Below the pieces are notes generated by a model that was given only the letters and a program-made list of their open reading frames with translations, was not told the origin of the DNA and made no database searches. This document shows positions 9,060-16,877 of a stretch of 24,764 nt of DNA, one piece after another; the stretch's first letter is position 1; each line of letters opens with the position of its first letter. Position numbers and translations under genes: made by a program. Source of the DNA: a virus; IMG/VR virus record IMGVR_UViG_3300021963_000621, positions 1 through 24,764 of that record. One strand, 5' to 3'.

Positions 9060-10220
9060 TTAAGCAAAGTTGTATCGACCCGTACCTGACTTAAAATCAA
9101 ACTTGCGCCAAGCTAATGCTAGTGCGCATACGGTGTCATCGTGAAATCCAGTAGGGGCTGAATACGTAACTCCATAAGAAGTATATTTAAATTCAAAAAT
9201 ATCTAATTCGTCTTTTATTATATTGTCAGGGAAATGTATCCTTTCTTGGTGGATAGCTACTTGTAAACCTAACATTAAATCTTGCTTTGACTGAGAAGTA
9301 AATTTAAATCCCTCTACATCTAATCCTTCTCTTTGTAATTGTTCTACCACCGGGTCGCCTACTCCCGTGCAATCTATAAGCATAGGCGCTTTAGGTAAAT
9401 TACGTATTGTATTTTGAGTCGATGCCCAATCTTTTTGAAACCTATCGAAATAACATACATTTCCTGAACTATCTAATCCTATTATAACGGTAAAATCAGA
9501 GTATTTAGCAAGGTCAATTCCATAAACCTTAACTGGATTTATTGATATATCAGAAACGCATTTAATTATATTAGAACTACCAAATGGATTAGATGAATTT
9601 TCCATTGGATTAGCCATATATTCTTGTTCAAATATAGGCATCGGTAAACTTATTTTAGCATCGTCTATTTCAGACTTAGAAATATGTGGATTATCGTATG
9701 TAGTATATTTAAAACTTTCCCATTGCTCTTCATCTTGTTTCATCCATAAACTATAAAAATAGTTTTTACCTTTAGGTGTAGATAAAAAAATTGCAGTACC
9801 CTGATAATCGGTTAATGTAGGTCTTATTGAATTCATCCATCCCTTTTCTAAATCAGGAATAAAAGATGCTTCATCTATAATTACACGATGAAATTTTAAT
9901 CCCCTAAATGAATCAAGCCTTACTCCAGTAAAGAATCTAATTTGACCTCCAGTAATAAATTTGATTATTAATGAAGACATATTGGTAGTATAACTACCTT
10001 CAGGCAACAAAGAACAAACTTCCCCAAAAAATACTTTAGCTAATAAGAATGTCGGTGTAACGTATGCAACGCTTTTACCTTTTAAGCAATCTTGTATTGC
10101 TATAACTTGAGACACAAGCGATTTGCCCCATCTCCTTCCACACATTAAAACAATAAATCTACTTTTAGAATTTAATACATTTAATTGTGTACTATGTGGC
10201 TTCGGTAATATTATTTCCAT
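9060..10220 (-). CDS. terL: Terminase large subunit
   Basis: This 386-residue packaging motor has an N-terminal ATPase and a C-terminal nuclease. Counting from ATG 10220: Walker A GRRWGKS at 28-34, Walker B VIIDEA at 113-118, coupling motif STPKGKN at about 147-153. The nuclease acidic residues are GIDLA (D about 236), LIDCTGVGDPV (about 286) and a late HDDTV (about 360). I chose ATG 10220, not the TTG at 10235 that gives a five-residue-longer frame. It overlaps the small-subunit gene by 29 bp, a common terS-terL arrangement. It cuts concatemers and pumps DNA into the prohead. Confidence 0.95.
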   Translation of the reverse strand: MEIILPKPHSTQLNVLNSKSRFIVLMCGRRWGKSLVSQVIAIQDCLKGKSVAYVTPTFLLAKVFFGEVCSLLPEGSYTTNMSSLIIKFITGGQIRFFTGVRLDSFRGLKFHRVIIDEASFIPDLEKGWMNSIRPTLTDYQGTAIFLSTPKGKNYFYSLWMKQDEEQWESFKYTTYDNPHISKSEIDDAKISLPMPIFEQEYMANPMENSSNPFGSSNIIKCVSDISINPVKVYGIDLAKYSDFTVIIGLDSSGNVCYFDRFQKDWASTQNTIRNLPKAPMLIDCTGVGDPVVEQLQREGLDVEGFKFTSQSKQDLMLGLQVAIHQERIHFPDNIIKDELDIFEFKYTSYGVTYSAPTGFHDDTVCALALAWRKFDFKSGTGRYNFA

Positions 10221-10587
10221 TGTCGTAAGGTTCAAATCTAACTACTATTTTATTATCGCTTTTAATATCAATATTAGATTGTTCCGATGGTCTTCCGTAA
10301 ACTCTTGTAAGCAATGTTTCTAAACTATATAGACTCCCCTTGTCAATGCTTTTCTTCATTGCATTAGCAATAGTCTTTTCTAATATTGTGCTACTCTCAT
10401 CAATAAATATTTCTTTTAATTCATCCGTAGTCATTGCCATCATAGACTGAATCGTGTCATTTATCTCAGATAGTTTATATCCATTTTCTTTTAACAATGT
10501 AACATATTTTCTAGGTCTTCCATTTTTATTTATCCTTTCAGGATTTGTATGAAATCCTTGATTTAATATATTTTCTGCATTTGCCAT
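10192..10587 (-). CDS. terS: Terminase small subunit
   Basis: This 131-residue protein would recognise the packaging site and recruit the large subunit. It has an N-terminal basic NGRPRKYVTLLKENGYKLSE segment (about 22-41), resembling the helix-turn-helix of terminase small subunits, then helical charged segments and an acidic tail. It lies directly before terL, overlapping it, and follows the ParB-like gene by one base. No diagnostic catalytic residue exists in this family, so the call rests on position, length and the DNA-binding-like start. Confidence 0.75.
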   Translation of the reverse strand: MANAENILNQGFHTNPERINKNGRPRKYVTLLKENGYKLSEINDTIQSMMAMTTDELKEIFIDESSTILEKTIANAMKKSIDKGSLYSLETLLTRVYGRPSEQSNIDIKSDNKIVVRFEPYDNGNNITEAT

Positions 10588-10588
10588 T

Positions 10589-11233
10589 TTATTTATTATT
10601 ATACTTCTGTCTGATTTTTACTTGCTCTTTAGATTCCCAAGCCTTTTTGTATTCTACGTTCTCAAATAGTTTACTAAATCCAGTTATGTGTTTTAGCCTT
10701 AATATTTCCTCTGACTCCATCCCTAACTCATTACAGATCTCTGCATCAGACCACCCATTTTCTAGCATCTGAAATACCATACTTGACATTCCCGATATAC
10801 TATGTTTCCCCCTTGCTCTGTTGTGCCTAACAGTACTTGCCATTCTATCGTTAATATCTTTTTCAATTACAACAATAGGAAGACATCCATTATTTCTTTC
10901 AAGAATATCTTTATTTGATTTACAAGTAAAGTACCTATGAAAGCCATCAACAATAATATACTTATCTAGTTTTTCATCGTAGATTGTAACAACGGGTTGC
11001 GTGTACCCATCGTGTTTAATTGAAGTATAAAGCAATCCCATTTCAGTCCTTGCAACTGAATTAGGATTGTAATCATTAGCTTGTACCTTATCAATGTTGA
11101 CCCATCTAACTAGGTCAATAGGTTGCCCACTTAAAGGACTTAACTCCTTATGAATAAATTCTCTTAACTCATAAATAAATTGCATTTTATCTTCTGAATT
11201 ATTAAATGCTTCTTTTAATTTCTGATGTATCAT
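10589..11233 (-). CDS. ParB-like nuclease-fold protein, IbrB type
   Basis: This 214-residue protein has a ParB/sulfiredoxin N-terminal fold. The VDGFHRYFTC segment (DGFHR at 96-100) is the typical nucleotide-binding loop. The box TVRHNRARGKHS (about 135-145) is characteristic of IbrB-type ParB proteins and distinguishes it from plasmid ParB. The C-terminal part (about 147-200, GWSDAEICNELGMESEEILRL) looks like a helix-turn-helix. Its start overlaps the stop of the upstream PAPS-reductase-like gene by 4 bp (ATGA), matching the known ibrA-ibrB pairing. Its substrate and action are not known. DNA modification or regulation is an inference from neighbours. Confidence 0.8.
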   Translation of the reverse strand: MIHQKLKEAFNNSEDKMQFIYELREFIHKELSPLSGQPIDLVRWVNIDKVQANDYNPNSVARTEMGLLYTSIKHDGYTQPVVTIYDEKLDKYIIVDGFHRYFTCKSNKDILERNNGCLPIVVIEKDINDRMASTVRHNRARGKHSISGMSSMVFQMLENGWSDAEICNELGMESEEILRLKHITGFSKLFENVEYKKAWESKEQVKIRQKYNNK

Positions 11234-12384
11234 ATATACTTACATTTGATTGTGTGTCTTGATATTGTGCCTTTTTGGTATTTTCTCCAAGTATGTACAT
11301 CAGGATTCCTTTCCCAATTTGTTATTTTTACAAACCCAAAGTCATTAATAACTATTGATTGAACGCATACTTTATAAAAGGTATCTTTATTGCGCATTGT
11401 TCCGTACTTATTATCTAATTTATCAAAATGCTTTTTAAACAATATTACTGAAGTTTCGGGCAATAATTTATCTATAAGGAAATCCCTATATTCCTTCCAA
11501 TCAGAAAACATATATGGTAACTCTTTAATAAAGAAATCGTCTTCTCCAAACCTGCTAGCCGTTGACACCCCTTGCAATCTTTCAGTAAGTTTGTTATATG
11601 TATCTCCTTCTATTTCTTGAAGAAAGAAAAGTTGTTTAATAGCAGTTTCGTGATGCAAGTTACTTACACGCATATCTTTAACTTGATATCCATGCTGATA
11701 CATATAATCATAAACCTTGCAGTAATTCCAATCATGCTGATGTATTGCTTTCCACACATCAGTATAAGACCAATCATATAATGGATAAAATGTATAATGC
11801 TCTTCTGCTTTATTAAGTGTTTTACCCCAAGTAATATCTTTGTATGTTACTGAGTTTGTTAAAGCTACTGCCCTTGTTGGGCTTTCCTCTGCTCTTACTC
11901 CAGCTAAATATGCTGATTTAATATTAGGAAATTGATATTTAAAGAAGTTAGGAAAGAACTTATAGAACTCATCTAAATGCGATGAATTTTTACCAGTCTT
12001 ATAAATATTCTCTTTAATAGATATTGGGTCTTTATCCCTCATCCATTTTTGTCCTTCTCCCCAAGCCTCTAAATGGTCTGAGGTTGTTGATGCTGAATTG
12101 GTTATTTTAAAAGGTACTTGTATCCAATAAGGTTCTACATCATCTCTGTACATTATCTCTTTTACATAGTCAATAGCAGATTGCCATTCAGCCTCTTGGT
12201 CGACAAACATTACCTTTTGTGGCAATCGGTTTCTTTCTTTTGCTATTTGAAGAGCAAGATTTAATACGCAAGTACTATCTTTGCCTCCACTAAATCCTAC
12301 AACTACATTATTAAATTCATCAAATATTCTATTAATTCTAGCTTTGGCTTCCTCTAATACATTTGTGTCTTTATAGAATTTCAT
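11230..12384 (-). CDS. PAPS reductase-like PP-loop protein, IbrA type
   Basis: This 384-residue protein carries the PP-loop SGGKDS at residues 32-37, the ATP-pyrophosphatase signature of the PAPS reductase/DndC superfamily. A DQEAEW motif follows at about 62-67, then a long insertion and a C-terminal region (about 190-384) like the DUF3440 part of IbrA proteins, including HHETAIKQLFFLQEIE (about 245-260). It forms a tight pair with the downstream ParB-like gene (4-bp overlap) and its own start overlaps the GNAT gene stop by 4 bp. DndC relatives activate adenylated intermediates for sulfur transfer to DNA. Whether this one uses sulfur is unknown. Confidence 0.85.
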   Translation of the reverse strand: MKFYKDTNVLEEAKARINRIFDEFNNVVVGFSGGKDSTCVLNLALQIAKERNRLPQKVMFVDQEAEWQSAIDYVKEIMYRDDVEPYWIQVPFKITNSASTTSDHLEAWGEGQKWMRDKDPISIKENIYKTGKNSSHLDEFYKFFPNFFKYQFPNIKSAYLAGVRAEESPTRAVALTNSVTYKDITWGKTLNKAEEHYTFYPLYDWSYTDVWKAIHQHDWNYCKVYDYMYQHGYQVKDMRVSNLHHETAIKQLFFLQEIEGDTYNKLTERLQGVSTASRFGEDDFFIKELPYMFSDWKEYRDFLIDKLLPETSVILFKKHFDKLDNKYGTMRNKDTFYKVCVQSIVINDFGFVKITNWERNPDVHTWRKYQKGTISRHTIKCKYI

Positions 12385-12752
12385 ATTGCTAATTTAATGT
12401 TTGTACATATTTTATATTCTCTTGTAATTATTGCCCCTCTATTTAAATATTCAGGTAAAGACATTTTAGTGCAAGATGCAATTATATTAGTACAATTATT
12501 GGCTTTTGCTTCTTTAATTCTAAAGTCTAATAATTCTCGAAAATATCCATTTCTTCTATGCTCTTTAAATATATAAAGATTATTAAATTTTGCCGTTTTA
12601 TTATAATATTGAATAGAACAAAATCCAATTAACTTGTTATCAATAAATGCTCCATAATAATTTGCCTTATTAGAATATCCAGCAAGACCTTCTCGTTTTG
12701 TCTGAGGAATATACGATTTTATTAATTCTAAATTAATTGCAGATATTGTCAT
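12381..12752 (-). CDS. GNAT-family acyltransferase
   Basis: This 123-residue protein is a compact GCN5-type acyltransferase. The core strand YGAFIDNKLIGFCSIQYY (about 33-50) is followed by the CoA pyrophosphate-binding loop HRRNGYF (65-71), a basic RxxG element. The third motif appears as NIIASCTKMSLPEYLNRGA (about 89-107). Its ends overlap both neighbours by 4 bp, between the methyltransferase and the PAPS-reductase-like gene. The phage Mu Mom enzyme also has a GNAT-type fold and alters adenine, so a role in a base hypermodification is possible. No direct resemblance to Mom is visible, and acetylation of a protein is equally possible. Confidence 0.78.
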   Translation of the reverse strand: MTISAINLELIKSYIPQTKREGLAGYSNKANYYGAFIDNKLIGFCSIQYYNKTAKFNNLYIFKEHRRNGYFRELLDFRIKEAKANNCTNIIASCTKMSLPEYLNRGAIITREYKICTNIKLAI

Positions 12753-13372
12753 TTAGATAATTTATTTATAGTAGTTTGTAATCTTTTCTTATTTAGCTCA
12801 TTCCCATAAAAATTCATCCCAAGCGATATAGCCATTTCAGCAGTCATTCCTAATCCACAACAAGGGTCTAATATAATCCCTTCTTTAACAGCAAAAGGAA
12901 TTGCAGACTTTATAATATTTTTTAACCCAGTCCCTCCAGTGATTTCTTTAATTATTTCATTTATGTTGCCATTCCAATTGTAGTCTTTAGTTTTAAAAAA
13001 ATGTTTATGATGTGGCAACATTTTACTGCCTGATTTATAGCAAACTTGTGCTACACCCAAATGCTCTAAATTATGATTAATTCCAATATCTATTAAATCC
13101 TTTTCCCATTTTATTCCATATTCAATTAATACAATACCTGATGTATGCTTTGATGCTAAACTAAATATTTGATTTAGAAAATCATTGTAATTAATATTTT
13201 CTGGGTCAATATTATTATGTCTTTTATTAATTGTTTGCCAATAAGAAATATTGCCTTGCCCCCAAGGTGGGTCGGAATAAAAGATATTTGCTTTCCTGCC
13301 TTGCATCAATTCATCTATGCCTAGCATTACGTTTTGATTTTGTACTCTGTGGTTTTTAATATTAGTTATCAT
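12749..13372 (-). CDS. DNA adenine or cytosine-N4 methyltransferase, DPPW type
   Basis: This 207-residue protein has the amino-methyltransferase catalytic motif DPPW at 34-37 near its N-terminus. The SAM-binding motif DPCCGLGMT lies at about 169-177 near its C-terminus, followed by FYGNELNKKRL. Motif IV before motif I matches the beta class (permuted order). At 207 residues it is short and lacks an obvious separate target-recognition domain, so specificity is hard to predict. It would transfer a methyl group to N6-adenine or N4-cytosine in DNA. Its stop overlaps the GNAT start by 4 bp, and its start overlaps the small gene above it by 11 bp. Confidence 0.85.
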   Translation of the reverse strand: MITNIKNHRVQNQNVMLGIDELMQGRKANIFYSDPPWGQGNISYWQTINKRHNNIDPENINYNDFLNQIFSLASKHTSGIVLIEYGIKWEKDLIDIGINHNLEHLGVAQVCYKSGSKMLPHHKHFFKTKDYNWNGNINEIIKEITGGTGLKNIIKSAIPFAVKEGIILDPCCGLGMTAEMAISLGMNFYGNELNKKRLQTTINKLSK

Positions 13373-13652
13373 ATTTATTTATTTTTAATGCTCTATTAAT
13401 TAAAATAGGTTGATGACCAACTCTTTCCATTGTCCAATATTTATATTCCCCAAAATAAAAATAGCTAAAATATGTATTAAAAAATCTTTCTTTATTTAGA
13501 TTCTGTTTCATATGCAAAACAAATCTATTGTATTGCTCTCTATCTTTACTTTTATTAAACAAGCAATATTCATGCGGTGTTGTTTTTGCGTATGTCTTAG
13601 CAAATATCCATTCATTGTTATTAATGAATTGTTCTATTTCTATGTCTATCAT
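13362..13652 (-). CDS. Small conserved phage protein with HEY and YKYWTM motifs
   Basis: This 96-residue protein belongs to a small family that I recall from phages and bacterial genomes, of unknown function. Its conserved parts are visible: WIFAKTYAKTTPHEYCLF near the N-terminus (HEY at about 27-29), a middle Phe/Tyr-rich region, and FGEYKYWTMERVGHQPILIN (about 67-86) near the end. It has no signal peptide or membrane helix. It overlaps the methyltransferase by 11 bp and the ParB-like gene by 4 bp, so it belongs to the modification cassette. The conserved His, Tyr and Trp suggest an enzyme or nucleic-acid binder, but I will not assign a reaction. Confidence 0.6.
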   Translation of the reverse strand: MIDIEIEQFINNNEWIFAKTYAKTTPHEYCLFNKSKDREQYNRFVLHMKQNLNKERFFNTYFSYFYFGEYKYWTMERVGHQPILINRALKINKYDN

Positions 13653-14179
13653 AGTTGTACTTTAAATTCGTGACCACAAGAAGGACAAAGAATATCAGCT
13701 TCTAAGGATTCTTGAATAAACTTGTCGGCGAGTTCCCGTGCTTTTTTCATTACATCATTATCGGTTACCTCCTTGTAATTTGTTTGTGGCTCTAATGTTG
13801 GCTGATACTCAGGAATATCCCATTGAATTAATCCCCATTCATTTAGGTTATTGTCATTCCACTCGTTAGCTAGATTATCCCAATCCCATTCTCCCGAACC
13901 TAAATTATCTTTAATTATAAATTCTTTTTGTTGTGCTTCAGATAAATCGGATGCCATTATAACAGGAACCTCTTTTAGGCCAGCCTCTTTGCAAGCCCTT
14001 AATCTCATATTGCCACCAAGAACTATCATATCGTTATTAACAACAATAGGTCTTAATGCTAACATTTCAGGAAACTCTTTAATTGATGCCACCAATTTTT
14101 TAAATTTATGGTCTTTAATGATTCTTGGATTATTAGGATTAGCCTTAATATCCGTAATTTTGGTTGTTATGATATTCAT
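13649..14179 (-). CDS. ParB-like nuclease-fold protein with C-terminal CPSC motif
   Basis: This 176-residue protein has an N-terminal ParB domain (residues about 1-95): TKITDIKANPNNPRIIKD starts the fold and LGGNMRLRACKEAGL (GGNMRLRA at 55-62) is the nucleotide-binding box. The middle is acidic with repeated Trp and Asn residues. The C-terminus reads ILCPSCGHEFKVQL, with CPSC at 165-168. This looks like one half of a zinc ribbon, though no second CxxC pair is seen. Such ParB-domain proteins are often found beside phage methyltransferases. It differs from the IbrB-type ParB further left, so the operon carries two distinct ParB proteins. Confidence 0.78.
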   Translation of the reverse strand: MNIITTKITDIKANPNNPRIIKDHKFKKLVASIKEFPEMLALRPIVVNNDMIVLGGNMRLRACKEAGLKEVPVIMASDLSEAQQKEFIIKDNLGSGEWDWDNLANEWNDNNLNEWGLIQWDIPEYQPTLEPQTNYKEVTDNDVMKKARELADKFIQESLEADILCPSCGHEFKVQL

Positions 14180-14709
14180 TTTTTAAAAAGTAATGACCAC
14201 TCGGTCGGTAAAGTTAATTTTTTTTCTAATGTAAATCCAAACTGACTAAAAAATTCAATCCACTTTTCTTCTGATTTAATATTGATATGACCCCACGAAG
14301 CATCTTGCTCAGGAGTTGTGTAATAAGGAGTTGATGAAAATAAGAAATATTCACAACTAATTTTATTTAAATAATCTTGAATCTGCTTATCAGTCAAATG
14401 CTCCATAACTTCTATGCTAACAATCATTTGGCAATTAGTAGGATAATCTTCTAAATCACATAATATTAATCCTCTTGAATAAGCAAAATCTCTATGATAT
14501 TTATTTGGCTCAATGCCATAGTAATTAATACCCTTCTTTTGCAAGCATTCTCCAAGCGTTCCCATACCAGCGCCTATCTCGATTATGTTTTTAGAATAAT
14601 CAATAATTATATTAGCCGTTGCATCCATCAAATTATAATAGTCAGGATTTTCGGGAGTTATGCCCCAAGATATTTCACAATCAAAAAATTCTTTGTCAGT
14701 TACGCTCAT
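14176..14709 (-). CDS. SAM-dependent methyltransferase
   Basis: This 177-residue protein has a class I methyltransferase fold. The SAM-binding motif EIGAGMGTLG lies at about 44-53, followed by YYGIEPNKYH (about 64-73), then MIVSIEVMEHLTD (about 92-104), the type-11 signature MEHL. Such enzymes usually methylate small molecules, sugars or lipids, not DNA, because the catalytic NPPY or DPPW box is absent. Its start overlaps the glycosyltransferase stop by 4 bp and its stop overlaps the ParB gene by 4 bp. Working with the glycosyltransferase it could modify a surface glycan or a glycosylated base. The substrate is unknown. Confidence 0.78.
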   Translation of the reverse strand: MSVTDKEFFDCEISWGITPENPDYYNLMDATANIIIDYSKNIIEIGAGMGTLGECLQKKGINYYGIEPNKYHRDFAYSRGLILCDLEDYPTNCQMIVSIEVMEHLTDKQIQDYLNKISCEYFLFSSTPYYTTPEQDASWGHINIKSEEKWIEFFSQFGFTLEKKLTLPTEWSLLFKK

Positions 14710-15722
14710 TCTATTAGTTTAGAATAAATAGCAAATCTATCCTCATTAATTTTAAATAAATCGTAATGCTCTCGGACATATTCAGCATTTGATTCTCCAA
14801 AATCCGTTCTCATTTGTTTTGAGAATACCATTCTTTTAATATCTCTTTCCCAATTATTAACCCAGCATACCGTTGGAATGTCATCGTATGGCGCTCGTTT
14901 AATTGCCATCAATGGAATCCTTTTTGCTCCAGCCTCTAATGCCTTTAGATTAGATTTTAATCGGTTAAATTTATTATCAAGCAATGGAGCAAGCAATATG
15001 TCAGCCTCCAAATAGAAATTCATGTACAAATCTACGGGCATCGATTCAAGTATCTTGTGGTTTAATCTTTCGCCAGCAGTAAACCAATCCCCCATTTGCT
15101 TCCAATGAAACTCATTTGCTTTATTCCAGCCACAAAGAAGCATTCGTGTCGACTCCTTAAAAGATTTAGACTTTGCTAATTCTCTAATCGGATTCTTTAA
15201 TTGCCTCATATCAGGAAAGTGAGTGATGCTACCCGTGTGAGCAATATTAACAAATTCGTTTACATTTCTTACCGCAGTAAATTGGTCTTTGTCAAACGGC
15301 AAAGCATTCGGCAGAATAAAGCAGTTAGGATTTATCTTAATTATCTCAAGCCGTAATCGGTTATGAGTTGTTGTAACTACATCAGCTACTTTTATATAAT
15401 TTTTAATTATTTGAGTTATTCCTAAAGACCGATATGTTGGCGCAGATAAATGTTGGCTAAACAATTCCCAGTAGTCATCTATATCTACAACTAACTTAAA
15501 GCCTAACTTAGCTTTTAATTTTAATAAATTAGGTAAAGGTATTAATTCGCAGAAACGATTGACTACAACTACATTAATGTTTTTTTCGATAAGCATCTCT
15601 TCGGTCATTGTATCCGTAATAATACAATATTCTTTTTTCATTACAGACAATGGTAACGCAAGACGATGGTATGTAACTCCCGAATGTCTACCCCCGATAG
15701 CGCAGATTCTTAGTTTGGACAT
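14706..15722 (-). CDS. GT-B-type glycosyltransferase
   Basis: This 338-residue protein looks like a GT4-like, GT-B-fold glycosyltransferase. It opens with MSKLRICAIGGRHSGVTYHR, then KLVVDIDDYW in the N-terminal half, and has a C-terminal donor-binding region including ADILLAPLLDNKFNRLKSNL followed by KALEAGAKRIPLMA. I start it at ATG 15722. The longer frame begins at a TTG (15752) and would overlap the preceding gene by 65 bp, while the A/C-rich leader AACCAAACAATG lies immediately before 15722. Its target could be a host glycan, a virion protein or a modified base in phage DNA. The adjacent methyltransferase is probably its partner. Confidence 0.78.
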   Translation of the reverse strand: MSKLRICAIGGRHSGVTYHRLALPLSVMKKEYCIITDTMTEEMLIEKNINVVVVNRFCELIPLPNLLKLKAKLGFKLVVDIDDYWELFSQHLSAPTYRSLGITQIIKNYIKVADVVTTTHNRLRLEIIKINPNCFILPNALPFDKDQFTAVRNVNEFVNIAHTGSITHFPDMRQLKNPIRELAKSKSFKESTRMLLCGWNKANEFHWKQMGDWFTAGERLNHKILESMPVDLYMNFYLEADILLAPLLDNKFNRLKSNLKALEAGAKRIPLMAIKRAPYDDIPTVCWVNNWERDIKRMVFSKQMRTDFGESNAEYVREHYDLFKINEDRFAIYSKLIE

Positions 15723-15972
15723 TGTTTGGTTTTGTTTGGTTGAGTTTTGCAATATACTTTATTCCTTCATAATGTGCAGATAATCTTTTGAGCATATCAA
15801 ATACGCAAGAGCCACACCACGAATTAAAGTTAAAATCCTTGTTTAAATATTTACGGTAAAGGCTCGCATATTCTTCAAGTATTTCTCGGTCAATGTTTTT
15901 AGTAAATCCTAAAGCAACTGCCTCAAAGTTTATAATGTTAGCTTCTATAAATGCTATCTCTTGCTCGTTCAT
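15688..15972 (-). CDS. Hypothetical protein with a WCGSC motif
   Basis: I do not recognise this 94-residue protein. It is helical and charged, with a WCGSC motif near residue 53 (the two cysteines could bind metal or form a redox pair), and it has a basic C-terminus. It overlaps the glycosyltransferase by 35 bp with the revised start and the membrane gene above it by 4 bp. It is not a membrane protein. The overlaps show that it is translated in the same operon as the sigma-like gene. Confidence 0.6.
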   Translation of the reverse strand: MNEQEIAFIEANIINFEAVALGFTKNIDREILEEYASLYRKYLNKDFNFNSWCGSCVFDMLKRLSAHYEGIKYIAKLNQTKPNNVQTKNLRYRG

Positions 15973-16196: not shown

Positions 16197-16375
16197 TTGT
16201 TTGTTTGATAAATTTCATCTTGAACTACACTCCAGTAGGCACGGTCATCTGCCTTTAGTTTTTGCTCAAGCACTAAAGAACAAAAATACAAAGCCAATTC
16301 AAAAGCAAATGATTTATTGCCACAAAAATAAAGGGCATTTATTAACAAACTTTTAGCTTTCTCATCAGGCTTCAT
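16193..16375 (-). CDS. Small helical protein of a Bacteroidetes phage family
   Basis: This 60-residue protein begins KPDEKAKSLLINALYFCG and ends ADDRAYWSVVQDEIYQTNK. The pattern of an N-terminal DPKEKAKEL-like start and a C-terminal YWxxVxxEI ending is one I recall from small proteins in many Bacteroidetes prophages. No function is known to me. It lies between the sigma-like gene (11-bp overlap) and the membrane protein (4-bp overlap). Confidence 0.6.
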   Translation of the reverse strand: MKPDEKAKSLLINALYFCGNKSFAFELALYFCSLVLEQKLKADDRAYWSVVQDEIYQTNK

Positions 16376-16877
16376 CCCTTATCTTCTTTTTAATGTTTGA
16401 AATCGTTTTGACTATTGACATATAAGGTATTCCAGTCTTTCTTGAAATCTCTGTCTGATTAAAATTTAATTCAACGTAAGTATTAAGTAGCATATCTTCA
16501 TACCAAGATAGTTCTTTTCGTGCAATCTCTACTTGATTAAATAGCTTTTCTTTATAATCCTTTGATTCATCTTCTATTTGAACTAAGTCTTCTATTCCAT
16601 CAATGCTTTCAAATTTTGCTCTATAATGCCGAAAGAATGGTTGATTCATTCCAGTTGAATAAATCATATTAAGCATACATCTTACAAGCCAATACTTTAA
16701 TCCACTTGTTCCGTTATTATTATAAATTGACCAAAACTTATCGTCTGTAATCGAGCATAGATTTAAAAACATTTCTTGCTTTAATTCTTCTCGCAGATTT
16801 GCTGGGTGCATTTTCATTAAGGCTTGTTTTATTTCCTTAGAATTATATAGTTCCTCAATGATTTGCGACCTGGTCAT
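16365..16877 (-). CDS. Phage sigma-70-like factor
   Basis: This 170-residue protein has the layout of a small sigma factor. A region 2-like segment lies at about 28-76 (LREELKQEMFLNLCSITDD and LKYWLVRCMLNMIY), followed by a linker. A region 4-like helix-turn-helix lies at about 128-168 (MLLNTYVELNFNQTEISRK, then PYMSIVKTISNIKKKIR). It would bind host RNA polymerase and redirect it to phage promoters, probably for the structural operon that starts further left. It overlaps the tiny membrane gene above it as ATGA (16874-16877). The region 4 part is the more convincing half. A transcription regulator without core binding is an alternative. Confidence 0.72.
   Translation of the reverse strand: MTRSQIIEELYNSKEIKQALMKMHPANLREELKQEMFLNLCSITDDKFWSIYNNNGTSGLKYWLVRCMLNMIYSTGMNQPFFRHYRAKFESIDGIEDLVQIEDESKDYKEKLFNQVEIARKELSWYEDMLLNTYVELNFNQTEISRKTGIPYMSIVKTISNIKKKIRDEA

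Follow-up and report, generated by a model that had tools for sequence, protein, structure and literature searches.

A recurrent IbrA–IbrB gene cassette in uncultured phages as a candidate modular DNA-hypermodification system

Introduction

The proteins IbrA and IbrB are encoded by more than 200 sequenced phages and have so far been filed as co-activators of gene expression or as sulfur-metabolism genes. Adenine modification by the Mom protein of phage Mu is the work of a GNAT-fold protein. There is a precedent for a ParB-like partner of a DNA-modifying enzyme, since the ParB-like ATPase DpdB serves the DNA-modifying DpdA (PMC12839542), and ParB folds are known to bind CTP, ATP or GTP (PMC12704722). 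In the phosphorothioation system Dnd the PP-loop enzyme DndC requires the cysteines of a [4Fe-4S] cluster (C280, PMC11662687).

Here we describe a phage gene cassette which joins IbrA and IbrB to a predicted DNA methyltransferase, a second ParB protein, a small conserved protein termed HEY and an exchangeable set of enzymes. We did not find a description of this cassette in the literature searched; parts of it may have been predicted earlier in a study on DNA base modification (Iyer et al. 2013).

Results

The analysed window is a stretch of 24,764 nt, a partial phage genome taken from IMG/VR record IMGVR_UViG_3300021963_000621. All six open reading frames of the cassette were confirmed on the minus strand between positions 10589 and 14179 (Table 1). 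Adjacent genes share 4-11 bases, and TerS begins one base past the end of IbrB, followed by TerL. The six overlapping genes before the terminase named in a preliminary description are thus borne out by coordinates and family matches. All six are present, with the small correction that the overlapping run extends upstream of ParB2 into a SAM methyltransferase and then a glycosyltransferase, both of which had been left out. The SAM methyltransferase is a possible additional tailoring gene; it has no conserved counterpart at the same place in two related loci, L001 and L004. In both loci a 42% identical copy of the window glycosyltransferase lies directly upstream of the cassette, and it is uncertain whether this gene is a cassette member.

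Table 1. Cassette genes and their neighbours in the window
Feature	Position	Strand	Family matches and remarks
Glycosyltransferase	14706-15752	minus	phrog_7162 6.8e-58
SAM-dependent methyltransferase (Methyltransf_23)	14176-14709	minus	PF13489 1.3e-7; overlaps ParB2
ParB2	13649-14179	minus	PF02195 5.4e-9, phrog_620 1.7e-31
HEY protein	13362-13652	minus	~90-aa domain; no family match
MT1, predicted DPPW beta-class (permuted) amino-methyltransferase	12749-13372	minus	PF01555 5.7e-6
GNAT acyltransferase, variable-slot member	12381-12752	minus	PF00583 7.9e-9
IbrA, PP-loop ATP-pyrophosphatase	11230-12384	minus	PF01507 1.7e-17, PF11922 5.7e-7, phrog_2302 1.2e-85
IbrB, ParB-fold partner of IbrA	10589-11233	minus	phrog_2159 6.4e-75
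Probable TerS, neighbour outside cassette	10192-10587	minus	position between IbrB and TerL; weak family matches only
TerL, neighbour outside cassette	9060-10235	minus	PF03237 8.1e-10, phrog_2 3.7e-37

IbrA belongs to the PAPS-reductase/CysD/DndC superfamily, carries a DUF3440 tail and adjoins a phrog_2159 ParB protein, as expected of an IbrA/IbrB pair. Isolate phages with IbrA or with IbrB are nearly equal in number, 215 and 218. In 102 homologues of IbrA the catalytic motifs SGGKDS and GVRAEES are near-invariant. No cysteine is invariant in this set, the best column reaching 75%, and the window protein is without the two commonest ones. A catalytic cysteine like that of a canonical PAPS reductase (CysH) is not conserved across these 102 sequences, and we have set aside CysH sulfur chemistry for IbrA for this reason. 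The closest solved relatives, found with weak scores in the PDB, are FAD synthase and CysD, which act on FMN or sulfate. Both ParB proteins possess the P-motif arginine of ParB-CTPases (DGFHR in IbrB, GGNMR in ParB2). In the annotated phages examined IbrA and IbrB are also found without MT1 or HEY, adjoining a helicase-like gene, and the core function may therefore differ.

The superfamily membership of IbrA (PADLOC DndC model, 6.6e-11) together with the ParB fold of DndB could be taken to mean that IbrA acts as DndC and IbrB as DndB in a phosphorothioation of the Dnd/Ssp type. We consider this highly improbable. No IbrA cysteine is conserved above 75%, so that the cysteines for the iron–sulfur cluster of DndC are not conserved and Dnd-type sulfur chemistry is unlikely. 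Furthermore, a PADLOC scan of seven window proteins detected no DndD, DndE or cysteine desulfurase, though DndA could be replaced by the host protein IscS.

In MT1 the motif SDPPWG at 33 precedes DPCCGLG at 169, which is the motif order of the beta class and agrees with the permuted amino-methyltransferase of the preliminary description. The PF01555 match covers the motif I part only. A profile of the MT1 family matched DpnA in the PDB (8e-9) and also CcrM and MboII, and the SDPPW motif is invariant across 31 diverse members. We therefore predict that MT1 is a beta-class DNA amino-methyltransferase like its solved relatives, which are DNA methyltransferases.

The HEY protein is characterized by the conserved residues FAKT..PHEY...YKYWTM...LINRA and has no match in Pfam, PHROG or NCBIfam. 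Its AF2 model is of high confidence (pLDDT 90), and the fold has no match in the PDB (best Foldseek E 1.2, best VIA Z 4.2); one homologue is present in BFVD. Elsewhere HEY is fused to SpeD, to a GNAT or to a SAM methyltransferase. It also stands alone on plasmids. ParB2 has a ParB fold with a C-terminal CPxC...F tail and matches phrog_498 (1.1e-30). No ParA family protein, as would be expected for a ParABS partition system, was found among the window proteins scanned.

IMG/VR was scanned separately with MT1 alone and with IbrA, and non-redundant loci were counted. The two sets of loci were kept apart because mixed counts would be circular, and in some loci a gene is missing because the contig stops there. 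The MT1 scan yielded 63 loci, 57 of which encode IbrA, with HEY in 38 and a GNAT in 12 of the 63. At least three of the six loci without IbrA are contig ends; L077 is a true exception, and in L048 IbrA is absent between the methyltransferase and TerL. All 43 loci of the IbrA scan contain ParB, 32 contain HEY and 10 a GNAT. Of these 43 loci, 40 have a tailoring enzyme from one of the modelled families, and the remaining three carry a class-I SAM methyltransferase, either alone or fused to HEY. The consensus order is ParB > HEY > [slot] > MT > [slot] > IbrA > IbrB > TerS > TerL, with ParB2 as the first cassette gene in most relatives and the tailoring families lying mostly upstream of IbrA (272 upstream vs 14 downstream). 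IbrB is 71% identical between the window and the distant L002 cassette. Loci L058 and L185 represent a cassette-bearing element of Treponema bryantii B25, which may be an active prophage. The linkage of the cassette genes is far beyond chance, and the linkage in other phages on which the preliminary description depended is confirmed, as the set recurs as a unit in dozens of unrelated phages. Neither MT1 nor the HEY protein of L002 had a match when 50,697 phage records were searched by tblastn.

In most loci the cassette is found directly before TerS/TerL, and each cassette has two or three ParB-fold proteins. In phage P1 the cleavage at pac is controlled by methylation. The cassette might accordingly mark pac or cos, or ParB might load there, and so license cutting by the terminase. 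However, at least 25 TerL groups (grouped at 40% identity) occur alongside the cassette and its enzyme chemistry is freely swapped, and a conserved packaging signal is therefore a poor explanation; moreover, some loci have no adjacent TerL. We give control of the packaging site little credence.

The exchangeable slots are occupied by GNATs, a paralogous pseudo-methyltransferase, class-I methyltransferases, glycosyltransferase-like and Fe/2OG-oxygenase-like proteins and pyruvoyl decarboxylases. Between loci L001 and L004 the DNA identity is 90-94% and only one gene is exchanged, a methyltransferase gene (633 bp) for a glycosyltransferase-like gene (588 bp). The slot decarboxylases match AdoMet_dc/SpeD (up to 2e-22) and PvlArgDC (1e-48). 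The L020 protein is 45-50% identical to phage SpeD homologues of a kind that decarboxylates arginine or ornithine (PMC9992855, PMC10407285), and the characterised phage homologues of the slot pyruvoyl decarboxylases yield agmatine or putrescine; the characterised decarboxylase of HTVC201P is not near IbrA. A slot family with an HxD...H motif has a fold like that of AspH and proline hydroxylases. Since the slot glycosyltransferase family gave only weak matches in PHROG, Pfam and PDB, we name these proteins GT-like. The window GNAT matches Acetyltransf_1 and RimI-type models, with no match to Mom among the Pfam, PHROG and NCBIfam models.

In annotations and citations IbrA and IbrB figure as co-activators of prophage gene expression or as possible virulence factors, and the cassette could be a regulatory module acting on prophage or host genes with the neighbouring enzymes as unrelated accessories. 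This appears improbable to us, because the catalytic motifs of IbrA are near-invariant, the pair co-occurs tightly with sets of enzymes and not with regulators, and a single enzyme gene is swapped between near-identical phages. Any regulatory effect could follow secondarily from a mark on the DNA.

As a counter-defence, the cassette could also act on tRNA, on proteins or on free nucleotides, such as a host factor or a signalling nucleotide. Elsewhere, PP-loop, GNAT, glycosyltransferase and Fe/2OG enzymes do have substrates of these kinds, and the weak PDB matches of IbrA to FAD synthase and CysD point in the same direction. Against this stand the DNA methyltransferases related to MT1, the presence of at least two ParB-fold proteins per cassette and its position in the genome region that serves packaging in these DNA phages, so that we regard a substrate other than DNA as unlikely.

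Discussion

We favour, as moderately probable, that the genes form a modular, post-replicative DNA-hypermodification cassette of phages with a core of an adenylating IbrA and an NTP-dependent ParB protein, IbrB. The swappable enzymes and the solved relatives of MT1 support a DNA-modifying role, as far as sequence comparisons can tell. The reading as a DNA-modification system given in the preliminary description is therefore supported in part, by the recurrent gene set, the swappable enzymes and the relatives of MT1, whereas its Dnd-like sulfur analogy is not supported, IbrA being without a conserved cysteine. The ParB proteins might act as specificity factors, as suggested there.

In the mechanism which we propose, IbrA would adenylate an atom of the DNA, either a base carbonyl or a phosphate oxygen, and thereby prepare it for the attachment of a group, and IbrB would load or position IbrA on the DNA as its NTP-binding partner. 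MT1 and the exchangeable tailoring enzymes would then install or finish the attached group; in the window phage this could be done by the GNAT and perhaps by the upstream class-I methyltransferase and glycosyltransferase. The fusions of HEY to SpeD, GNAT and methyltransferase suggest that it may be a domain on which substrates or enzymes dock, and ParB2 may be a second DNA-loading factor. Replicated DNA would receive the mark shortly before it is packaged, which would help in the escape from host nucleases, with slot swapping altering the mark under selection.

Far more tentatively, IbrA–IbrB might represent a new class of DNA-modifying engine, in which a PP-loop enzyme that lacks a catalytic cysteine is loaded on DNA by a ParB-fold NTPase and adenylates the DNA. 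An exchangeable nucleophile, such as agmatine or putrescine from the cassette decarboxylase, would be attached, giving lysidine- or agmatidine-like bases or phosphoramidate-like links to be methylated, acetylated, hydroxylated or glycosylated by the slot enzymes.

The cassette context assigns IbrA and IbrB a specific and testable role and predicts variable, novel DNA modifications in many uncultured phages. Some phage polyamine decarboxylases could alternatively be read as supplying a DNA-attached group and not as serving spermidine synthesis. The one-gene swaps in near-identical phages offer natural experiments on the assignment of enzymes to marks.

Among the known systems, the window proteins are clear members of the phage and prophage IbrA/IbrB pair (phrog_2302 / phrog_2159, DUF3440), but the known pairs of Flavobacterium, Streptococcus, Lactobacillus and Fusobacterium phages lie beside helicase-like or uncharacterised genes, without HEY and MT1. 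Dnd/Ssp phosphorothioation likewise combines an enzyme of the PP-loop superfamily with a ParB-fold protein; the window differs in having neither conserved cysteines in IbrA nor, among the proteins scanned, DndA, DndD or DndE, and in having methyl-, acetyl- and glycosyl-type enzymes. The 7-deazaguanine insertion by Dpd also relies on an NTPase of the ParB fold as partner of the modifying enzyme (PMC12839542), whereas IbrA is a PP-loop enzyme and no TGT/DpdA match was found among the window proteins scanned of this partial genome. In the base hypermodifications of phages (putrescinylthymine of phiW-14, 5-NedU, glucosylated 5hmC of T4) a core step is also followed by tailoring with an amine, a sugar or another group, but the core enzyme of the window is of another kind, and neither a dUMP hydroxymethylase nor downstream kinases or nucleotide-pool genes were recognised in this part of the genome. 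With Mu Mom the window shares a GNAT-fold protein in the context of phage DNA modification, but the families matched by its GNAT are those of ordinary acetyltransferases, and the protein is one of the exchangeable parts of a cassette. Finally, in the ParB–DNA methyltransferase fusions (phrog_498, PMC12704722) a phage ParB fold is coupled to an N6_N4 methyltransferase, whereas in the window the two are separate genes tied to IbrA, IbrB and HEY.

Organization of the window operon

The window (24,764 bases, an IMG/VR virus record) derives from a tailed phage, and its minus-strand genes overlap tightly from a glycosyltransferase through IbrB, the ParB-fold partner of IbrA. The six-gene cluster before the terminase that the preliminary description had reported was confirmed by the ORF positions, and the protein families assigned there were borne out by family searches. 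Compared with solved structures, the profile of MT1 matches the DNA methyltransferases DpnA, CcrM and MboII. Upstream of the late genes there is also a sigma-factor-like protein (16365-16877; phrog_1740, 9.4e-6).

Genes of the overlapping run in the window and the adjoining terminase
Gene	Position	Strand	Remarks
Glycosyltransferase	14706-15752	-	first in run
SAM methyltransferase	14176-14709	-	second in run
ParB2	13649-14179	-	ParB fold (family searches)
HEY	13362-13652	-	no match in family searches
MT1	12749-13372	-	permuted, beta-class amino-methyltransferase
GNAT	12381-12752	-	family searches
IbrA	11230-12384	-	PAPS-reductase-superfamily PP-loop protein with DUF3440 region
IbrB	10589-11233	-	ParB fold (family searches)
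Probable TerS, then TerL	after IbrB	-	

Linkage of the cassette genes

A scan of IMG/VR with the MT1 alignment alone yielded 63 non-redundant loci (numbered L), 57 with IbrA, 58 with a ParB and 38 with HEY. Among the six loci without IbrA two contigs stop shortly 3' of MT1 (L014, L056), one starts just ahead of it (L073) and one reaches 1.4 kb beyond it (L053); in L048 and L077 the absence of IbrA appears genuine. Searching in the opposite direction, with an IbrA alignment, gave 43 non-redundant loci from the lineage near the window and not from the whole IbrA diversity; ParB is present in all, TerL in 37 and HEY in 32. Of these loci 40 carry a tailoring enzyme from one of the families modelled, and the remaining three (L150, L156, L184) have a class-I SAM methyltransferase, either by itself or as a fusion with HEY. 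Such frequencies do not reflect a general background, given that no more than 215 of 50,697 phage records contain IbrA. In L002, the first independent case, all six genes recur, with methyltransferase and GNAT in swapped order, and the terminase is strongly diverged (32% over 106 residues); the TerL proteins of MT1-carrying loci form 25 groups at 40% identity. The cassette is also found in the named strain Treponema bryantii B25 (L185/L058), a possible experimental source.

HEY genes lacking an IbrA partner are present on plasmids of Rhizobium leguminosarum and on the Butyrivibrio plasmid pCY186 (L006:4971-5297; L007:4971-5306), in the latter close to McrBC.

Exchange of putative tailoring enzymes

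The consensus order is ParB, HEY, slot, MT1, slot, IbrA, IbrB, TerS, TerL. The slots hold GNAT, MT2 (an MT1 paralogue with eroded DPPW motif), class-I SAM methyltransferases, many fused to HEY, a glycosyltransferase-like family of about 200 residues (30 of 105 non-redundant loci), SpeD/AdoMet_dc proteins (three fused to HEY), in one case a pyruvoyl arginine decarboxylase, and a family of about 170 residues with an invariant HxD...H. The model of the last (pLDDT 91) resembles the Fe(II)/2OG oxygenases AspH and proline hydroxylase (Foldseek E 1.4e-4; VIA Z 9.7, rmsd 3.8 over 121 residues) and also matches the wider cupin fold. Slot families were counted 272 times upstream of IbrA and 14 times downstream, the sequence available being comparable in amount on the two sides; the MT1 and MT2 counts are not fully independent because their models partly overlap. 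On the IbrA tree slot content shifts 48 times over 102 tips, a figure inflated by incomplete contigs. The cleanest swap is between the window relatives L001 and L004, which are 90-94% identical across the region apart from one exchanged gene, MT1 (L001, 5988-6620) against the glycosyltransferase-like gene (L004, 5045-5632).

In a distant branch of the cassette a conserved family of about 290 residues with no assigned function lies directly ahead of IbrA (L054:6618-7481; relatives in L076, L079, L081-L084). Type IV CRISPR effector genes (Csf2/Cas7, 2e-44; Csf3/Cas5, 6.6e-30; Csf1, weak) and a CysH-like gene share an operon with MT1, GNAT, IbrA and IbrB (L079:3248-10058; L081:2739-9732; also L082, L084), and in L079 Csf3 overlaps the end of IbrB. 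A possible connection of type IV CRISPR complexes to the cassette merits study.

Decarboxylases

The SpeD of the L020 cassette is about 45-50% identical to phage homologues including that of HTVC201P, which was shown to decarboxylate arginine to agmatine; further phage homologues are ornithine decarboxylases (PMC9992855, PMC10407285). Because the unrelated arginine decarboxylase PvlArgDC occupies the equivalent place in L042, the cassette decarboxylases might converge on an amine. This is suggestive only, since the cited papers interpret SpeD-type decarboxylases as polyamine metabolism and HTVC201P has no IbrA near its decarboxylase gene. In the L065-type SpeD the canonical ESH motif is intact, and this protein may genuinely decarboxylate AdoMet.

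Proposed function and comparison with known systems

In the literature searched (subscription literature being outside its scope) we found no description of the cassette; IbrA and IbrB appear there as prophage gene-expression co-activators or possible virulence factors. The proposal that the cassette modifies DNA is partly supported, and is strengthened by its recurrence and linkage and by the slot exchange, while Dnd-type sulfur transfer via cysteine looks unlikely. In 102 IbrA homologues the motifs SGGKDS, GxRxEES and PxxDW and further residues are kept at 93-100%, and no cysteine is invariant. From these sequences we infer that IbrA adenylates its substrate without cysteine-mediated sulfur transfer. 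The window, a partial genome, contains no recognisable nucleotide-pool genes, which fits post-replication modification.

The IbrB of Mycobacterium phage Gaia (L091:4608-5507) is a fusion protein whose N-terminal part carries the annotation ectoine synthase (cupin). Fusobacterium phage phiFN37 encodes a ParB with a queuine tRNA-ribosyltransferase and a queuosine-precursor transporter (L094:8457-9742); its IbrA/IbrB pair lies about 3 kb away, hence two ParB-partnered modification candidates within one phage.

ParB folds, which in phages are often joined to methyltransferases, bind CTP, ATP or GTP (PMC12704722), and DpdB is a ParB-like ATPase serving dPreQ0 insertion into DNA (PMC12839542). On these grounds we propose that IbrA-IbrB could act as a DNA-modifying core that is NTP-dependent; HEY would be a docking domain, and the slot enzymes would do the tailoring. 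Such a core would differ from DndC, which depends on Fe-S cysteines (PMC11662687), whereas IbrA has no invariant one.
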